From contig NZ_CP019630.1 in NCBI RefSeq assembly GCF_001999245.1, forward strand, positions 1,860,001 through 1,924,000: a stretch of 64,000 nucleotides of DNA, written 5' to 3'. The position numbers and the translations under genes are program-made. This document shows positions 45,640 to 52,787 of this stretch, one piece after another. The stretch comes from Roseibium algicola. Lineage in GTDB: Bacteria; Pseudomonadota; Alphaproteobacteria; Rhizobiales; Stappiaceae. Within the stretch, counting starts at the first letter, position 1; each line of letters starts with the position of its first letter. The notes under the pieces are model-generated. The model did no database searches, was not told the origin of the DNA, and worked only from the letters and a program-made list of their open reading frames with translations.

Positions 45640-46335
45640 ATGGACTTTTCCCTGCTAAGTGACCTCAACAAGGACCGTGCCGCGCGCCGTGCGGCGATCC
45701 TGGTGACCGACATGGTGGACGGGCAGCAACGCCTCGTCCGCAAATCCGACGATTTTTCCGGCGATCCCCTGGCTGAGGAACTTGCAAGGCGTTTCCGCTC
45801 AGGTAAATCCGGCATGATCACCGCAGAAAGTGGCGAAGTCTTCCTGAACGTATCCTTGCCTGCGCCGCGCCTGGTCATCATCGGCGCAGTGCACATCAGC
45901 CAGGCGCTTGTTCCGATGGCGGAGATTGCGGGGCTTGATGTGACCGTCATTGATCCGCGCACGGCCTTTGCCACCGAAGACCGCTTTCCCGGAAGCACAC
46001 TCAAGGCGGACTGGCCCGAAGAGGTCTTGAAGGATGCGCCCCTTGATGCCTTCACGGCCGTTGCCGCTGTCACTCATGATCCGAAGATCGACGACTACCC
46101 CCTGATGGAAGCGCTGAAGACCGGATGTTTCTATGTCGGGGCGCTCGGCAGCCGCAAGACCCACGGCAAGCGTCTGGAACGCTTTACCGAAGCCGGCCTG
46201 GCACCTGAGCTGTTTGACCGGATCGATGCTCCGATCGGTCTCGATATCGGAGCAGCTTCACCGGAGGAAATTGCGGTGGCCGTGCTGGGCGCCATCATCA
46301 AGGCGTTGCGGACCGCTCCGGGAGCTGCCGCATGA
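45640..46335 (+). CDS. XdhC Rossmann-domain protein
   Basis: This 231-residue protein corresponds to the C-terminal part of XdhC: a linker (ESGEVFLNVSLPAPRLVIIG) leads into a Rossmann fold (IIGAVHISQALVPMAEIAG, VTVIDPRTAFATEDRFPGS, VTHDPKIDDYPLMEAL, GALGSRKTHGKRLERF). It ends with GLDIGAASPEEIAVAVLGAI. Together with the 111-residue protein at 44657 it recreates full-length XdhC. It starts three bases after the lysE stop and overlaps the next gene by four bases. Confidence 0.9.
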   Translation: MDFSLLSDLNKDRAARRAAILVTDMVDGQQRLVRKSDDFSGDPLAEELARRFRSGKSGMITAESGEVFLNVSLPAPRLVIIGAVHISQALVPMAEIAGLDVTVIDPRTAFATEDRFPGSTLKADWPEEVLKDAPLDAFTAVAAVTHDPKIDDYPLMEALKTGCFYVGALGSRKTHGKRLERFTEAGLAPELFDRIDAPIGLDIGAASPEEIAVAVLGAIIKALRTAPGAAA

Positions 46336-47948
46336 TATTCGGCCCTTGTCCGCCGGAAGATGCCGAAGGCTGTATTCTCGCGCACCGGACAGCCCTGCCG
46401 AAGCGTGTGCTGAAAAAAGGCCGCCGCCTGACGGGACAAGACTGCGCCGAGATTGCCGCCGCCGGTATCGACAGCCTCATGGTTGCCCGAATAGAACCCG
46501 GCGACATCGGCGAGGATGCCGCGGCTGAGCAGCTCGCCACGGCTGCTGCAGGTGCGGGTCTTGAGACCGACACCGCCTTTACGGGGCGCATGAACCTCTA
46601 TGCCGCCACCAACGGCGTCCTGGTGGTCGATGCGGATGCGGTTACCGCGGCCAACCGGATTGATCCGGCCATCACCTTCGCGACACTGCCGAACTGCAGC
46701 AAGGTTCTGGCCGGCCGTATGGTTGCAACCGCGAAGATCATTTCCTTTGCCGTTCCAGAAGAACAACTGGGAGCCGCCGAAAACGCTCTCAGGGGCGCAG
46801 TCCGTGTTGCCGGCTTCAGTCCGCGCAAGGTTGGCCTTGTCGCAACGCAACTGCCGCATCTCAAGCCTTCGACCATGGACAAGACCCGCCGCGTGCTGGA
46901 AGACAGGCTGTTGCCGAGCGGATCAACCGTCCTGAACGAGCACAGGGTCGCCCACAGCAGGGAGGCCGTCGCCGAAGCCTTGCGGTCGCTGAAGGAAGAA
47001 GGCGCTGATTTTCTGATCCTGTTCGGGGCTTCTGCCGTTGTCGACAGGCAGGACGTGCTGCCTGCGGCTCTGGATCTTGCCGGCGGGACGGTGCACCACC
47101 TGGGCATGCCGGTGGACCCCGGCAACCTGCTGATGCTCGGAAGTCTCGACGGCATTCCCGTGCTGGGCGCACCGGGCTGCGCCCGAAGCCCGAAGGAGAA
47201 CGGTTTCGACTGGGTTCTGGACCGCCTGCTTGCGGGACTGGAAGTTCACCCTGACGACATTACCGCGATGGGTGTTGGAGGCCTCTTGATGGAAATCGGG
47301 ACACGGCCGCAGCCCCGCGAAGGCAAACGCAAGGGCGAAGCTGCCAGGATCGCGGCGCTGATCCTTGGCGCAGGCAAGTCTTCCCGCATGGGCGGTCCGA
47401 ACAAGCTGCTTGCGACGCTGGACGGCAAGACCCTGATCCGGCATGCCGCAGAAGCTGCCGCCGGCGTCGGTCTGTCACAGACCGTTCTGGTAACCGGGCA
47501 TCTGGCTGAAGAAGTCGGCGCACAGGTCGAAGATCTGGACGTTACGCTGGTGCACAACCCGGATTTTGCAGACGGCATGGCCGGGTCCATCCGCACCGGC
47601 ATGAATGCTCTCGCCGCAGATACCGATGCGGTGATCGTTCTTCTGGGCGACATGCCACGTATCGGCTGCGATGTTCTGAAGAGGCTGATCGGCACTTACC
47701 GCGAAAACGACAACAGTCTGATCGTCACCGCAACGGCGGATGGGAAACGGGGCAATCCGGTCTTGTGGGACCGGCGCTTCTTCGAAGCCCTGAAATCCTT
47801 GAGCGGCGACGTTGGAGCGCGTCACATCATTGGCGAAAACCCCGGGTTCGTGGCCGAAGTCGAGATCGGATCCGCCGCAAGACTGGATCTTGATACACCC
47901 GATGCGCTTCGGCAGGCTGGAGGCAAGTTGCCTGAGCCAAAAGGCTAA
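46332..47948 (+). CDS. Fusion of MoeA-like molybdopterin-binding domain and MobA-like cofactor nucleotidyltransferase
   Basis: This 538-residue protein joins two domains. Residues 1 to about 335 resemble the MoCF/MoeA molybdopterin-binding fold (EGCILAHRTALPKRVLKKGR, GADFLILFGASAVVDRQDVL, MPVDPGNLLMLGSLDGIPVLGAP). Residues from about 343 are a MobA/MocA-like NTP-transferase (AALILGAGKSSRMGGPNKLLA, then VLLGDMPRIGCDV and GKRGNPVLWDRRF), the type that adds CMP or GMP to molybdenum cofactor. MocA-like activity fits hydroxylases of the xanthine oxidase family. It is the last gene of the XdhC operon. No hydroxylase structural gene lies in the window, so the enzyme being served must be elsewhere. 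Confidence 0.9.
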   Translation: MIFGPCPPEDAEGCILAHRTALPKRVLKKGRRLTGQDCAEIAAAGIDSLMVARIEPGDIGEDAAAEQLATAAAGAGLETDTAFTGRMNLYAATNGVLVVDADAVTAANRIDPAITFATLPNCSKVLAGRMVATAKIISFAVPEEQLGAAENALRGAVRVAGFSPRKVGLVATQLPHLKPSTMDKTRRVLEDRLLPSGSTVLNEHRVAHSREAVAEALRSLKEEGADFLILFGASAVVDRQDVLPAALDLAGGTVHHLGMPVDPGNLLMLGSLDGIPVLGAPGCARSPKENGFDWVLDRLLAGLEVHPDDITAMGVGGLLMEIGTRPQPREGKRKGEAARIAALILGAGKSSRMGGPNKLLATLDGKTLIRHAAEAAAGVGLSQTVLVTGHLAEEVGAQVEDLDVTLVHNPDFADGMAGSIRTGMNALAADTDAVIVLLGDMPRIGCDVLKRLIGTYRENDNSLIVTATADGKRGNPVLWDRRFFEALKSLSGDVGARHIIGENPGFVAEVEIGSAARLDLDTPDALRQAGGKLPEPKG

Positions 47949-48239
47949 ACCTTTGGCCTGGTAAAGTAAGCCGAAGCAATAAAGCCAAACGATAACATTA
48001 CATTAACCCGGTATGCACTGAGTGCAGGCCGGAATTGCCAGCTATTCTATTGCAATTTTGTGACATGCCGCTTATGTAATGCCTGCGCTTGCTGAAGGGC
48101 ACCCAATTGGGTTGGACAACGGATGACGTCCCGGGCGCCGCTTACATCCGATTCCTGTCGAAAGCTGTTCGGATCCTCCCTCCCGAGGATGCTCGAGCGC
48201 TTTTGTCGCTTGGTTAAAAGAAGAACGAAGGAAAACGTC
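47949..48239. other. Spacer between the Moco operon and the GcrA-like gene
   Basis: No gene is supported in these 291 bases. A 39-codon in-frame extension upstream of the GcrA-like gene (from 48123) lacks a ribosome-binding site and similarity. Visible features are a palindrome CCCAATTGGG (48102-48111) and an AT-rich stretch near 47980-48060 that may hold the promoter. Confidence 0.4.
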
Positions 48240-48446
48240 ATGGCTGACTTGTCTCTCCCGCGCCCGGGCTGCTGCAAATGGGCAGAAGGTGATTCTGGTA
48301 ACTACATCTTCCCGTGCAGCACGCGCGTCGAAGCAGGTGTCTCCTATTGCACCGAACATAGCGCCATCGTCTACATCCCGCCGGAAGAGCGCCGCCGCAA
48401 CCGTTCCGGTGGTGGCATGAGCCTGTCCTTCCGCCGCGCGGCATAA
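48240..48446 (+). CDS. Free-standing GcrA C-terminal-domain-like protein
   Basis: This 68-residue protein is a match to only the last third of the cell-cycle factor GcrA. The pattern CKW-x2-GD...F-x-C...YC-x-EH-x3-Y-x-P followed by a basic tail and a final FRRAA mirrors GcrA's CKWPIGDP...FCG...YCAEHARVAYQP and its SLRRYI end (recalled sequence). In GcrA this domain contacts domain 2 of sigma-70, while the missing N-terminal helix-turn-helix reads methylated DNA. AAGGA lies seven bases upstream of the ATG and a strong terminator follows, so it is a complete single-gene unit, not a fragment. A role in sigma-70 binding without DNA recognition is inference. Confidence 0.75.
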   Translation: MADLSLPRPGCCKWAEGDSGNYIFPCSTRVEAGVSYCTEHSAIVYIPPEERRRNRSGGGMSLSFRRAA

Positions 48447-48504: not shown

Positions 48505-48530
48505 AACCCGGCCCTCAGGCCGGGTTTTTT
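48505..48530 (+). terminator. Terminator of the GcrA-like gene
   Basis: AACCCGGCC (48505-48513), loop CTCA, GGCCGGGTT (48518-48526) and a T run make a textbook Rho-independent terminator. Confidence 0.92.
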
Positions 48531-48842: not shown

Positions 48843-51800
48843 ATGACCCCTGTGCAGGGAGACAGCGAACAGGACCGCCTGGACGCACTGGCGACCCTTC
48901 AGATTCTCAATTCTGAACGCCTGCCGGAATATGACGATCTCGTGGAGACCCTTGCCACGATCTTCGATGCCCCGATGGCCTTCATTTCCATCGTCGGTAA
49001 GGATGACCTCTGGTTCAAGGCCAAGATCGGCATAGACGTCGACGGCACTCCAAGAAAAGGCACTTTTTGCGATCAGGCAATCCTCTCGCGCGAGTTGATG
49101 GTCGTTCCCAACGCCCTTGAAGACCCCCGCTTCCGCGATACGAGCCTCGTTGCCGGTCCACCCTACACACGCTTTTATGCAGGTTTGCCGTTGTGCCTGG
49201 ATGGCACGCACATCCTTGGGACACTCTGCGTCGTCGACACCAAACCACGGCGGCCAAGCGAAACACAGCTCCGCCAACTGCAGCGTATGGGATCGATCGT
49301 CCTCGGTCTGATGAAGTCTCATCGCGCCCAGAGTGATACGCAATCTGCCCTTCGGGCGGCCGAAGAACAGCAACGGCTTGCGATGCGCAAGAGCGATCTG
49401 CTGGAAGAGATCACGGCCGTTTCCGGTGTTGGCGGCTGGGAAGTGGATATTGATACCGACACGGTAACCTGGACGGAAAAAACCTGCGAAATCCATGAAG
49501 TGGATGACGACTTCGTTCCAACTGTCGATATGGCGCTTTCCTTCTACGCACCGGATTGCCGTCGCCAGATATCGGATGCCGTCATCAAAAGTGTCAAGGA
49601 AGGCGTTGCCTGGGATCTTGAACTCCCGTTCGTGACCGCCAGGGGGCGTGAGATCTGGGTTCGCACCGCGGGCAGGCCCATCATCGAAGATGGTCGCGCG
49701 ACCCGTTTGATCGGTGCCTTCCAGGACATTACCGAACGCAAGCAATCCGAACAGGCCGTGCTTCATTCCGAAGCGGTCCATCGCACCACCCTGGAATCCC
49801 TAAGCGAAGGGATTCTCCTCGTCAACAGAGCCGGACAGATCCAGTCCTTCAATCCTGCAGCAGCTGCATTGCTCGGCTACACCGTCGGGGAAATGAAAGG
49901 TCAAAAGCTTCAGGATCTCGACCTCGATATCGAATGCGAAGAAGACGGCCACGTTTCCGGCTGCAATCCCCTGCAACAGGCAGCGGTCAATCCGGACAAG
50001 GTTTGTAACGTCGTTGCAAACGTGACCCGTCGGGGGACCGACCAGTCCGTCTGGCTGCGGCTGAATGCGAAATCGATTGGCGACGACAATGCGTATGGCC
50101 TCGACGGCGTTGTCCTTTCCCTGACCGACGTCACCGCGACCAAGCGGCAGCTCATCGCTCTGCAAGCCATTTTCGACAACCTGCCGGGTGGCCTCGTCTA
50201 TTATGATCCCGACAGACGGCTTGCGGTCTGCAACAAGGATTTTCAGCGCCTTCTGCAACTGCCGCAGGAATTTATTGATCGCAAGGCGCCGTTGCTGGAG
50301 GTGGCGACATATCTGGCAAAGCGAGGAGACTACGGTCCGGGAGACCCGGACAAGCTTCTGGAAGAACGGTTCAGGTATTTCAATGATCCCAAACCGCATA
50401 TTTACGAGCGCGTCAGCCCCGATGGGACACATCTGGAAGTCCGTGGTATCCCTCTGCCGAGCGGGGGCCTTATCACCAGTTTCTTTGATATTTCGGAGCG
50501 CAAACGGGCAGAGAACATCTTGCGGTATTCCGAGGCCGTCCAAAGGACAACGCTCGAGTCTCTCAGCGAAGGTATTCTTCTGCTGACACATACCGGCGAG
50601 ATCCAGTCAGCCAATCCTGCTGCGATCGACCTCTTGGGCGTGACCGGCAGGGAGCTGGTCGGGTTGAACGTAACCGACATTGATTTTGGCCTTCGCTGTG
50701 ATCTTGAAGACAAGGGTCCGTGCGATGCACCGCTAGAGCTTGCTGCGCGTGACCCGGGATCACTGAGGGACGTCATCGCCCGTCTCTCCCCCACCAACGG
50801 GCGGCCTAGGAAGTGGCTTCGCCTGAGCGCCATGCCAATCGACGACGATCAGGAGTTCGATCTGGACGGTGTCGTCGTCTCCCTGACGGACATTACCGAG
50901 ACCAAGCAGCAGGCCGACACGCTGCAAAGCATCTTCGACAACTTTCCGGGCGGGATCGTTCACTACGATGAAACGCTCCGGCTCGCGTCGAGCAATCAGC
51001 AGTTCCGCGACCTTCTCGAATATTCTGATGAGTTGATTGAAGATCGGCCTTATCTTTACGACTTCTTTCTCTTCAACGCTCGAAGAGGTGACTACGGCCC
51101 CGGCGACCCAGAGGCTCTCGCTCTGGAACGGTATCGGAAGTACGACCTGAAAAAATCACAGGTGTTCGAACGGCGTGCCGCGAACGGCACCTATATCGAA
51201 ACCCGGAGCACGCCACTGCCGTCAGGTGGTCTCATCCATAATTTTTACGACATCACCGACCGCAAGAACCTGGAAGAACAACTTGCCGCGAACGAACGGT
51301 TGGCACGGCATCGCTCGCACGAACTCGAAGCCATTCTCGCCAATATGCGCCAGGGTGTCAGCGTCTTCGACGCGCGTGGCCGGCTGTCATTGTGGAACCG
51401 GCAGTACATCGAAATCTTCAACAAACCTGAGGGCGATGTTTACGAGGGTATCAGCCTCATCGAATTGATCCAGGCCGAGAAGGATCGCGGCGAATTCGAA
51501 GGCGACGTTCAGGAACACGTCATGGATCTGATGATCCGCTTATCGGCAGGCGAAGTGGTCCGTTCCAAGTTCAAACATCCCAACGGCAGGATTGTCAGCG
51601 CGGTCCATGCGCCCTTGCCGGCGGGCGGCTGGATCGGTACGCATGAAGATGTAACGTCCCGTGAACTGGCGGCTGAAAAGATCCAGTTTGCCGCTCACCA
51701 TGACACCTTGACCGGGCTCGCCAACCGAACGCTATTCAATGCAAAGCTGGACGAAGCCCTGAATGCGGCATCGGCCAATGGCATTGCAGGCGACCTGATG

Positions 51801-52217
51801 CTGCTTGATCTCGACAAGTTCAAACCGGTGAATGACAGCTTCGGTCACGATGTCGGTGACGAACTTCTTAAAACAGTCGCACAGCGACTGCGCGAGTGTG
51901 TCCGGTCCTCAGATCTGGTCGCTCGTCTCGGCGGCGACGAATTCGGGATCATCCTAACCGGAACCGGTTCCGGCAACGCCAGTACGGCCGAGATCGCCGA
52001 TCGTATCGTCCGCAAGATCGGGGCACCGTTCGCTGTCCAGGATCACATTATTTCGGTTGGCGTCAGCGTCGGAATTTCTCCGATAACGGGCACGGAACTG
52101 GATCCTCGTCCAGTGATAAAGCGCGCCGATATGGCGCTTTACGAGGTCAAGCATAACGGGCGTAACGGGTTCAAGTTCTTCGAAGAGGAAGACGTCGCTC
52201 GGTTTGCTCGCGCCTGA
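48843..52217 (+). CDS. Large GAF/multi-PAS diguanylate cyclase
   Basis: This 1124-residue cytoplasmic protein makes cyclic di-GMP in response to several inputs. Order: GAF (about residues 25-160, with KGTFCDQAIL and GTLCVVDTKPR), a PAS/PAC unit (about 195-305, ending FQDITERKQSEQ), then two consecutive copies of a 254-residue two-PAS block (308-561 and 562-815), another PAS (about 829-940, LANMRQGVSVFDARGRLSLW) and a GGDEF domain. The active site is LGGDEFG at residues 1029-1035, and an intact RxxD inhibitory site (RSSD) lies five residues upstream, so it should be active and feedback-controlled. No membrane segment or EAL domain is seen. It is a single gene after an AT-rich promoter region. 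Confidence 0.94.
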   Translation: MTPVQGDSEQDRLDALATLQILNSERLPEYDDLVETLATIFDAPMAFISIVGKDDLWFKAKIGIDVDGTPRKGTFCDQAILSRELMVVPNALEDPRFRDTSLVAGPPYTRFYAGLPLCLDGTHILGTLCVVDTKPRRPSETQLRQLQRMGSIVLGLMKSHRAQSDTQSALRAAEEQQRLAMRKSDLLEEITAVSGVGGWEVDIDTDTVTWTEKTCEIHEVDDDFVPTVDMALSFYAPDCRRQISDAVIKSVKEGVAWDLELPFVTARGREIWVRTAGRPIIEDGRATRLIGAFQDITERKQSEQAVLHSEAVHRTTLESLSEGILLVNRAGQIQSFNPAAAALLGYTVGEMKGQKLQDLDLDIECEEDGHVSGCNPLQQAAVNPDKVCNVVANVTRRGTDQSVWLRLNAKSIGDDNAYGLDGVVLSLTDVTATKRQLIALQAIFDNLPGGLVYYDPDRRLAVCNKDFQRLLQLPQEFIDRKAPLLEVATYLAKRGDYGPGDPDKLLEERFRYFNDPKPHIYERVSPDGTHLEVRGIPLPSGGLITSFFDISERKRAENILRYSEAVQRTTLESLSEGILLLTHTGEIQSANPAAIDLLGVTGRELVGLNVTDIDFGLRCDLEDKGPCDAPLELAARDPGSLRDVIARLSPTNGRPRKWLRLSAMPIDDDQEFDLDGVVVSLTDITETKQQADTLQSIFDNFPGGIVHYDETLRLASSNQQFRDLLEYSDELIEDRPYLYDFFLFNARRGDYGPGDPEALALERYRKYDLKKSQVFERRAANGTYIETRSTPLPSGGLIHNFYDITDRKNLEEQLAANERLARHRSHELEAILANMRQGVSVFDARGRLSLWNRQYIEIFNKPEGDVYEGISLIELIQAEKDRGEFEGDVQEHVMDLMIRLSAGEVVRSKFKHPNGRIVSAVHAPLPAGGWIGTHEDVTSRELAAEKIQFAAHHDTLTGLANRTLFNAKLDEALNAASANGIAGDLMLLDLDKFKPVNDSFGHDVGDELLKTVAQRLRECVRSSDLVARLGGDEFGIILTGTGSGNASTAEIADRIVRKIGAPFAVQDHIISVGVSVGISPITGTELDPRPVIKRADMALYEVKHNGRNGFKFFEEEDVARFARA

Positions 52218-52376: not shown

Positions 52377-52787
52377 TCAGGCCTTGGTGAGGGCTTCTGC
52401 GACGTCCTTGAGCTGAGCCAGTGTCATTTCGGCTTTCTGCCGCGAGGCATCGTCCTTGGCGTCGGAAACATCTTCCTGCGCATCCTGGATTGCCTGGTCG
52501 AGCTGCTCACGGCTGATCTCGCCAACCGGAACGGCCTGTTCGGCCAGAACGGTGAGACCGCCTGCTGCAACATCGGCAAAACCACCGCGGACGAAATATT
52601 CGTCCCAGCCACCATTTTCGCTGCTGCGCACCTTCAGGATGCCCGGCAGGATGGTGGAGATGAACGGGGCATGGTTCTTCAGAACGCCAAACTCGCCTTC
52701 GGCGCCCGGTACAACGACCTCTGCGACCTGTTCGGAGAGGAGCTGGCGCTCCGGCGAGACCAACTCAAACTGGAAAAGTTCAGCCAT
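52377..52787 (-). CDS. atpC: ATP synthase F1 subunit epsilon
   Basis: The epsilon subunit belongs to the central stalk and restrains ATP hydrolysis. The 136-residue protein has the beta-sandwich start (FQFELVSPERQLLSEQVAEV), the VVVPGAEGEFGVLKNHAPFI motif and a helical C-terminal tail rich in Ala, Glu and Lys. It is the last gene of atpHAGDC; 93 bases separate it from atpD. Confidence 0.95.
   Translation of the reverse strand: MAELFQFELVSPERQLLSEQVAEVVVPGAEGEFGVLKNHAPFISTILPGILKVRSSENGGWDEYFVRGGFADVAAGGLTVLAEQAVPVGEISREQLDQAIQDAQEDVSDAKDDASRQKAEMTLAQLKDVAEALTKA

Follow-up and report, generated by a model that had tools for sequence, protein, structure and literature searches.

GcrA is described as having a DNA-binding domain (residues 1 to 45), an unstructured linker and a sigma-interacting domain (SID; residues 108 to 173) that binds region 2 of sigma (PMC7403470). 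Sigma region 2 may also be targeted without DNA contact, as reported for Escherichia coli Crl, which has been contrasted in this respect with GcrA, RbpA and GrgA (PMC6917491). Here, we analyzed a 64,000-nucleotide stretch of the Roseibium algicola genome (NZ_CP019630.1, positions 1,860,001 to 1,924,000; hereafter the window), which contains a short gene coding for a 68-residue protein, P0001. The initial annotation, made from the nucleotide sequence, had described a free-standing GcrA SID-like gene whose product could compete with, tune or mimic GcrA. Our analyses confirm that such a gene is present, and they partly support the earlier interpretation as a whole.

Translation of the locus agreed with the 68-residue product. 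P0001 matched Pfam PF07750 (GcrA) with an E value of 5e-5 and 24.2 bits, below the curated cut-off of 26.9, the only further Pfam row being a Cys-Cys-Cys-His (CCCH) zinc finger at 0.07, and NCBIfam NF050816 (GcrA) with 5e-7 and 30.2 bits, the cut-off of 280 being that of a whole-protein model. GcrA was its sole non-marginal sequence match among solved structures (PDB chains 5yix_B, 4.4e-5, and 7ye1_G, 1.7e-4), 5yix being, by its title, the GcrA SID in complex with sigma70 domain 2. Alignment of 50 short proteins with 31 GcrA SIDs using hhalign gave a probability of 98.6% over 56 columns, and 49 of the 50 members of the short-protein alignment matched PF07750 at E <= 0.01. The predicted relationship with GcrA was thus recovered with both profiles, with the PDB chains and with hhalign. 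The Pfam match placed residues 11 to 54 on positions 110 to 154 of the 155 in the profile and nothing elsewhere, in agreement with the claim that P0001 lacks the N-terminal helix-turn-helix DNA-binding domain of GcrA; the linker is also missing. Since that domain is what reads methylated GANTC in GcrA, such recognition would not be expected of P0001. That the protein aligns with the SID from end to end was slightly generous. Residues 11 to 66 can be aligned with the SID, including the CCCH residues, the CKW motif, the tyrosine and the basic tail, but residues 1 to 10 and the terminal Ala-Ala are unmatched. Predicted models of the short protein were of medium confidence, and their top Foldseek chains were GcrA SIDs, all with E values above 0.001: 7ye2_G for the first model (E 0.22, prob 0.82), and 7ye2_G (E 0.096, prob 0.98) followed by 5yix_B (E 0.29, prob 0.93) for the second. 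These models lean toward P0001 sharing the fold of the GcrA SID.

The short gene has a start of its own. An ATG located 9 to 12 residues ahead of CKW is kept in all 62 fetched copies, which represent 52 distinct proteins from 59 genomes, three genomes being present twice. Since the window genome also has an in-frame ATG at 48123 followed by an open frame, the true product might be a 107-residue protein of which the SID is merely the end. We consider this extremely improbable, as the ribosome-binding site is placed before 48240, the DNA upstream of that position forms the conserved hairpin described below, and a number of relatives, such as L008, L025, L067 and L075, have a stop in this frame only a few codons away from the conserved ATG. 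The ribosome-binding site and the terminator that had been attributed to the gene were both recognized by eye (Table 1). A scan for terminators did not by itself exceed shuffled sequences (2 found, 1.5 expected), and a terminator-type hairpin lies 3' of 45 of the 62 fetched copies. A Pfam search of the same genome also found one complete gcrA (G000:C1:1140583, E 2.9e-56), as the initial annotation had suggested looking for. Its third GcrA match (G000:C1:5119380) has 15.1 bits and two internal stops. A small frame at G000:C1:897151 was rejected as a further candidate: it covers 21 profile positions at E 0.023 and faces a long open frame on the opposite strand.

Searches with profile A1 detected the short gene in every one of the 87 family genomes (Stappiaceae-like; 7 of 7 genera), with one strong match in each (E 5.3e-20 or better, the next match anywhere being at 2.1e-10). 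The short proteins come from Roseibium, Labrenzia, Stappia, Polymorphum, Breoghania, Pseudovibrio, Polycladidibacter and Flexibacterium, as well as from two organisms labeled only Rhodobacteraceae bacterium and one labeled Stappiaceae bacterium. Most of these genera belong to the Stappiaceae of NCBI, for which the 11 listed taxa do not include Polymorphum. Where the proteins carry a name, it is hypothetical protein or, in UniRef, GcrA cell cycle regulator. Conservation in related genomes was therefore found, but conservation across the order was not supported. In the order sample (347 genomes, 16 of them in the family), the 331 outside genomes gave weaker matches only in 213 cases (best 1.6e-10) and none at E <= 0.01 in 118; among the matches listed, all frames had at least 171 codons, i.e., the length of GcrA. 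In the class sample (385 genomes), the best outside match, at 1.1e-11, was a GcrA with its DNA-binding part. At most 17 (order) or 15 (class) first-look candidates were scored per genome, so divergent short genes may escape these searches.

The short gene is under purifying selection, with an uncorrected pN/pS of 0.16 (496 pairs among 32 distinct coding sequences of the genus) and a median synonymous difference of 0.51. Together with the family-wide conservation and the start codon, this upholds the view that the gene is not debris. Persistence of the C-terminal domain alone would be expected of a decaying fragment of a gcrA duplicate with no role, and grouping of the short family with the family's own GcrA was not rejected (p-AU 0.213). 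Such decay is nevertheless very improbable in view of the single strong copy in every family genome, the pN/pS value, the conserved leader and start, and the best tree, in which the short family stands apart from the family's own GcrA. One family genome carries two nearby GcrA-like genes with identical C-terminal sequences (L087; G068:C22:120500-126500).

We then considered what the lone SID might bind. Nine residues are invariant in the 63 aligned short proteins and GcrA SIDs (C12, W14, G17, F24, C26, Y36, C37, H40 and Y45), four of which make up a CCCH set that might bind metal. The short protein would most likely dock on the housekeeping sigma factor at region 2, the site used by GcrA, without contacting DNA. 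Because that site would be shared, it would either exclude GcrA from a fraction of the holoenzyme or, in the manner of Crl on sigmaS, shift the activity of sigma70 independently of GANTC methylation. The earlier proposal that P0001 could compete with, tune or mimic GcrA is plausible. In our judgment, there is an even chance that P0001 is a short-lived sigma70 cofactor at the docking site of GcrA, which either competes with GcrA or shifts sigma70 activity without regard to methylation.

Some features of the family weigh against this proposal. The prolines and the AY motif that are invariant in GcrA have given way to other residues in the short family, and since several of these replacements are themselves conserved, another partner is possible. 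In addition, a tree built from 18 rows of the short family and 23 of GcrA separated the two with support of 100/100; this tree was made without half of the 36 short rows, the six remaining SID-only rows and four GcrA rows on long branches. The main competing explanation is that the SID fold was repurposed to bind a different sigma factor, some other part of RNA polymerase or a protein unrelated to transcription, possibly through a CCCH zinc site. We regard it as possible but less probable than the sigma70 cofactor, as the aromatic and CCCH core is common to all 63 aligned sequences and no other family passes an E value of 0.001 for P0001. A second alternative is that the short protein acts on GcrA rather than on sigma, for instance by pairing with GcrA via its SID. 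The genome encodes both proteins, and GcrA reportedly forms an elongated dimer that is partially unfolded (PMC3667746). This is unlikely, however, because SID-mediated dimerization found no support here, and the contact made by the SID in the solved structure (5yix) is with sigma.

The short lifetime included in the sigma70 cofactor proposal comes from the C terminus. All 62 fetched copies end in Ala-Ala, preceded by variable residues, as do 41 of the 42 proteins P0001 to P0042, the exception (P0022) being a 119-residue frame that runs on. In contrast, 44 of 46 GcrA proteins checked, which were picked by a motif filter and include some near-copies, do not end in this manner; Ala-Ala is thus rare in GcrA (2 of 46). 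By a crude count that includes wrong-strand frames, it ends 2 of 47 long frames of the window. In Caulobacter, degradation of CdnL is reported to depend on a C-terminal AA, which the same work regards as characteristic of many ClpXP substrates (PMC5324124), and altering the C-terminal alanines of CtrA stabilizes that protein (PMC4433202). Given the conserved Ala-Ala and these precedents, the short protein is probably short-lived as well. Its level would be set by recognition of the tail by ClpXP or ClpAP and, in the genus of the window, also by a structured leader RNA.

This putative leader element is a hairpin whose core in the genus reads CTGTTCGGATCC-(variable loop)-GGATG-TCGA-CG. The exact pattern occurs once each in 43 of 45 genus genomes (all but G016 and G069), while a reversed control occurred in none, and in all 43 it sits 31 to 41 bases before the short gene. 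All 34 fetched loci of the genus have the hairpin; it was not seen by pattern in 28 loci of other genera. In an alignment of 25 sequences, pairing holds for 98.6% of cells, and changes on both sides occur in 4 pairs, compared with 0.7 in shuffled alignments. Slid versions of the hairpin likewise gave 2 to 4 pairs changed on both sides (3 to 10 such cells, compared with 6). Since, in addition, no variation is seen in 10 of the 17 pairs, the covariation support is modest. The variable loop length and the retained G-U pairs favor a hairpin that would act as RNA rather than as a DNA operator. The whole 170-base leader did not fold better than shuffled sequences (z -0.52), and an Rfam search gave nothing at gathering thresholds, with one weak match (E 0.57) taken as chance. 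A scan for promoter consensus sequences around the gene found none (0.7 expected in shuffles); TTGCAA-17-TATGTA, recognized by eye in a conserved block, is a candidate promoter. Control of the short gene through GANTC was rejected, because the upstream GANTC sites are not conserved. At six loci of other genera of the family (L038 to L041, L043 and L044), a hairpin resembling a terminator and carrying a run of T is located some 75 to 125 bases before the short gene, directly after a TATATTA or TATATAA box; these hairpins may be attenuators or the end of the upstream gene.

SID-only proteins also occur elsewhere. A separate 77-residue protein (MNQLVR...; L148 to L153, L159), with its own conserved start, was found in 7 of the 347 order genomes, all of one genus, and matches Pfam GcrA at 9.5e-6, slightly below the cut-off. 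We call this genus Methylobacterium-like because the GcrA SID of G200 is identical to that of a Methylobacterium bullatum record. Microvirga plasmids hold relatives at 14 places in 9 records, including a 68-residue protein annotated as GcrA family cell cycle regulator (WP_157934680.1). Several SID-only genes lie on these plasmids (L160, L161, L164), mostly at places where the table used shows no annotated gene. Five similar copies are dispersed in genome G316 (L146, L154 to L158). In one of them, a single open frame encodes transposase domains and, behind these, the SID (Pfam GcrA 6.4e-8), which suggests a mobile passenger. A 67-codon SID-only frame (Pfam 8.5e-7) was present in one genome of another order of the class. 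The divergent proteins of the Methylobacterium-like genomes and Microvirga plasmids and the transposase fusion indicate that the architecture recurs. When all 69 rows were placed in one tree, long branches included, the short family did not occupy one side of a branch, and the distant frame L116 lay beside it; constraining the 36 short rows (p-AU 0.574) or all 42 SID-only rows (p-AU 0.549) together was not rejected.

A database search with GcrA SIDs returned 796 short matches. Among the best 120, a simple motif test found DNA-binding remnants in 22 and none in 98, 74 of which start with M. Most of these 74 retain the GcrA linker and look like GcrA ends produced by contig ends or start calls; some on long contigs (e.g., P0066 and P0087) could be real SID-only genes. 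As for phages, phiCbK-like Caulobacter phages are reported to carry GcrA relatives outside the host gcrA (PMC3556154; 18 phage records), as P0001 lies outside gcrA. Unlike P0001, however, the one compared of the 18 phage records (BL57, L162) is full length with the DNA-binding part, as are the GcrA-like proteins of L111 and L113 (IMG/VR), two of the five loci found in a viral search.

The surroundings of the gene were compared using 20 stretches of 12 kb from 20 family genomes. The upstream surroundings are retained: XdhC-like and molybdenum-cofactor transferase-like genes are kept in all 20, PckA in 19 (in L061 it would fall beyond the stretch), and atp genes flank the other side of the short gene in 14. 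The PAS-GGDEF gene that follows it in the window is shared with 1 of the 20, so the short gene is older than its current downstream neighbor.

Table 1. Features of the short gene and its surroundings (window coordinates).
Feature	Coordinates	Strand	Basis
Upstream neighbor, C-terminal molybdenum cofactor cytidylyltransferase-like domain	46332..47948	+	NCBIfam TIGR03310, 6.9e-40, 137 bits (cut-off 186)
Possible promoter TTGCAA-17-TATGTA in conserved block	48050..48078	+	By eye; 33 sequences of the genus keep the block
Conserved 5' leader hairpin, core 48165-48199, CTGTTCGGATCC...GGATGCTCGAGCG	48160..48204	+	Pattern search, pairing analysis
Ribosome-binding site GAAGGA	48227..48232	+	By eye; purine-rich AAGGA-like stretch before most listed copies
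68-residue free-standing GcrA SID-like protein (P0001) and stop	48240..48446	+	Translation, profile matches
CCCH set C12, C26, C37, H40, possible zinc site	48273..48359	+	Invariant columns, 63 sequences (A4)
Ala-Ala end, possible ClpXP-type degradation tail	48438..48443	+	All fetched copies
Intrinsic terminator CCCGGCC-CTCA-GGCCGGG-TTTTTT	48507..48530	+	By eye, scan, relatives
Downstream neighbor, PAS-GGDEF protein, outside conserved neighborhood	48843..52217	+	In 1 of 20 neighborhoods (L079, same genus)
ATP synthase epsilon subunit, start of atp operon	52377..52787	-	In 14 of 20 neighborhoods

Two known systems offer partial parallels. Crl is a small activator acting on region 2 without DNA contact, the mode proposed for P0001; unlike the latter's presumed target, that of Crl is sigmaS, and no sequence match between the two appeared in profile or structure-database searches. 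A SID on its own would amount to an analogue of Crl derived from GcrA. CdnL is likewise described as a small RNA polymerase-binding protein whose C-terminal AA drives degradation, but it belongs to another family, contacts the beta subunit (PMC5324124) and gave no sequence match to P0001. In the titles and abstracts of the GcrA literature searched, subscription papers being mostly outside this scope, a SID-only protein was not described.

GcrA has been described as linking DNA methylation to sigma70 via two domains, and a protein resembling only the sigma-binding half occurs naturally. Its conservation makes it testable whether this half by itself regulates transcription or dampens GcrA, and the SID-only protein is a natural tool for separating the two activities of GcrA. 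We tentatively propose, as a possibility we hold with some doubt, that SID-only proteins form a recurring class of proteolysis-timed anti-GcrA factors or methylation-blind sigma70 cofactors, one fixed in a family and equipped with a leader RNA in one genus, others disseminated within Methylobacteriaceae on plasmids and along with transposases. If so, this class would give Alphaproteobacteria a second means, independent of DNA, of acting at GcrA's site on sigma.
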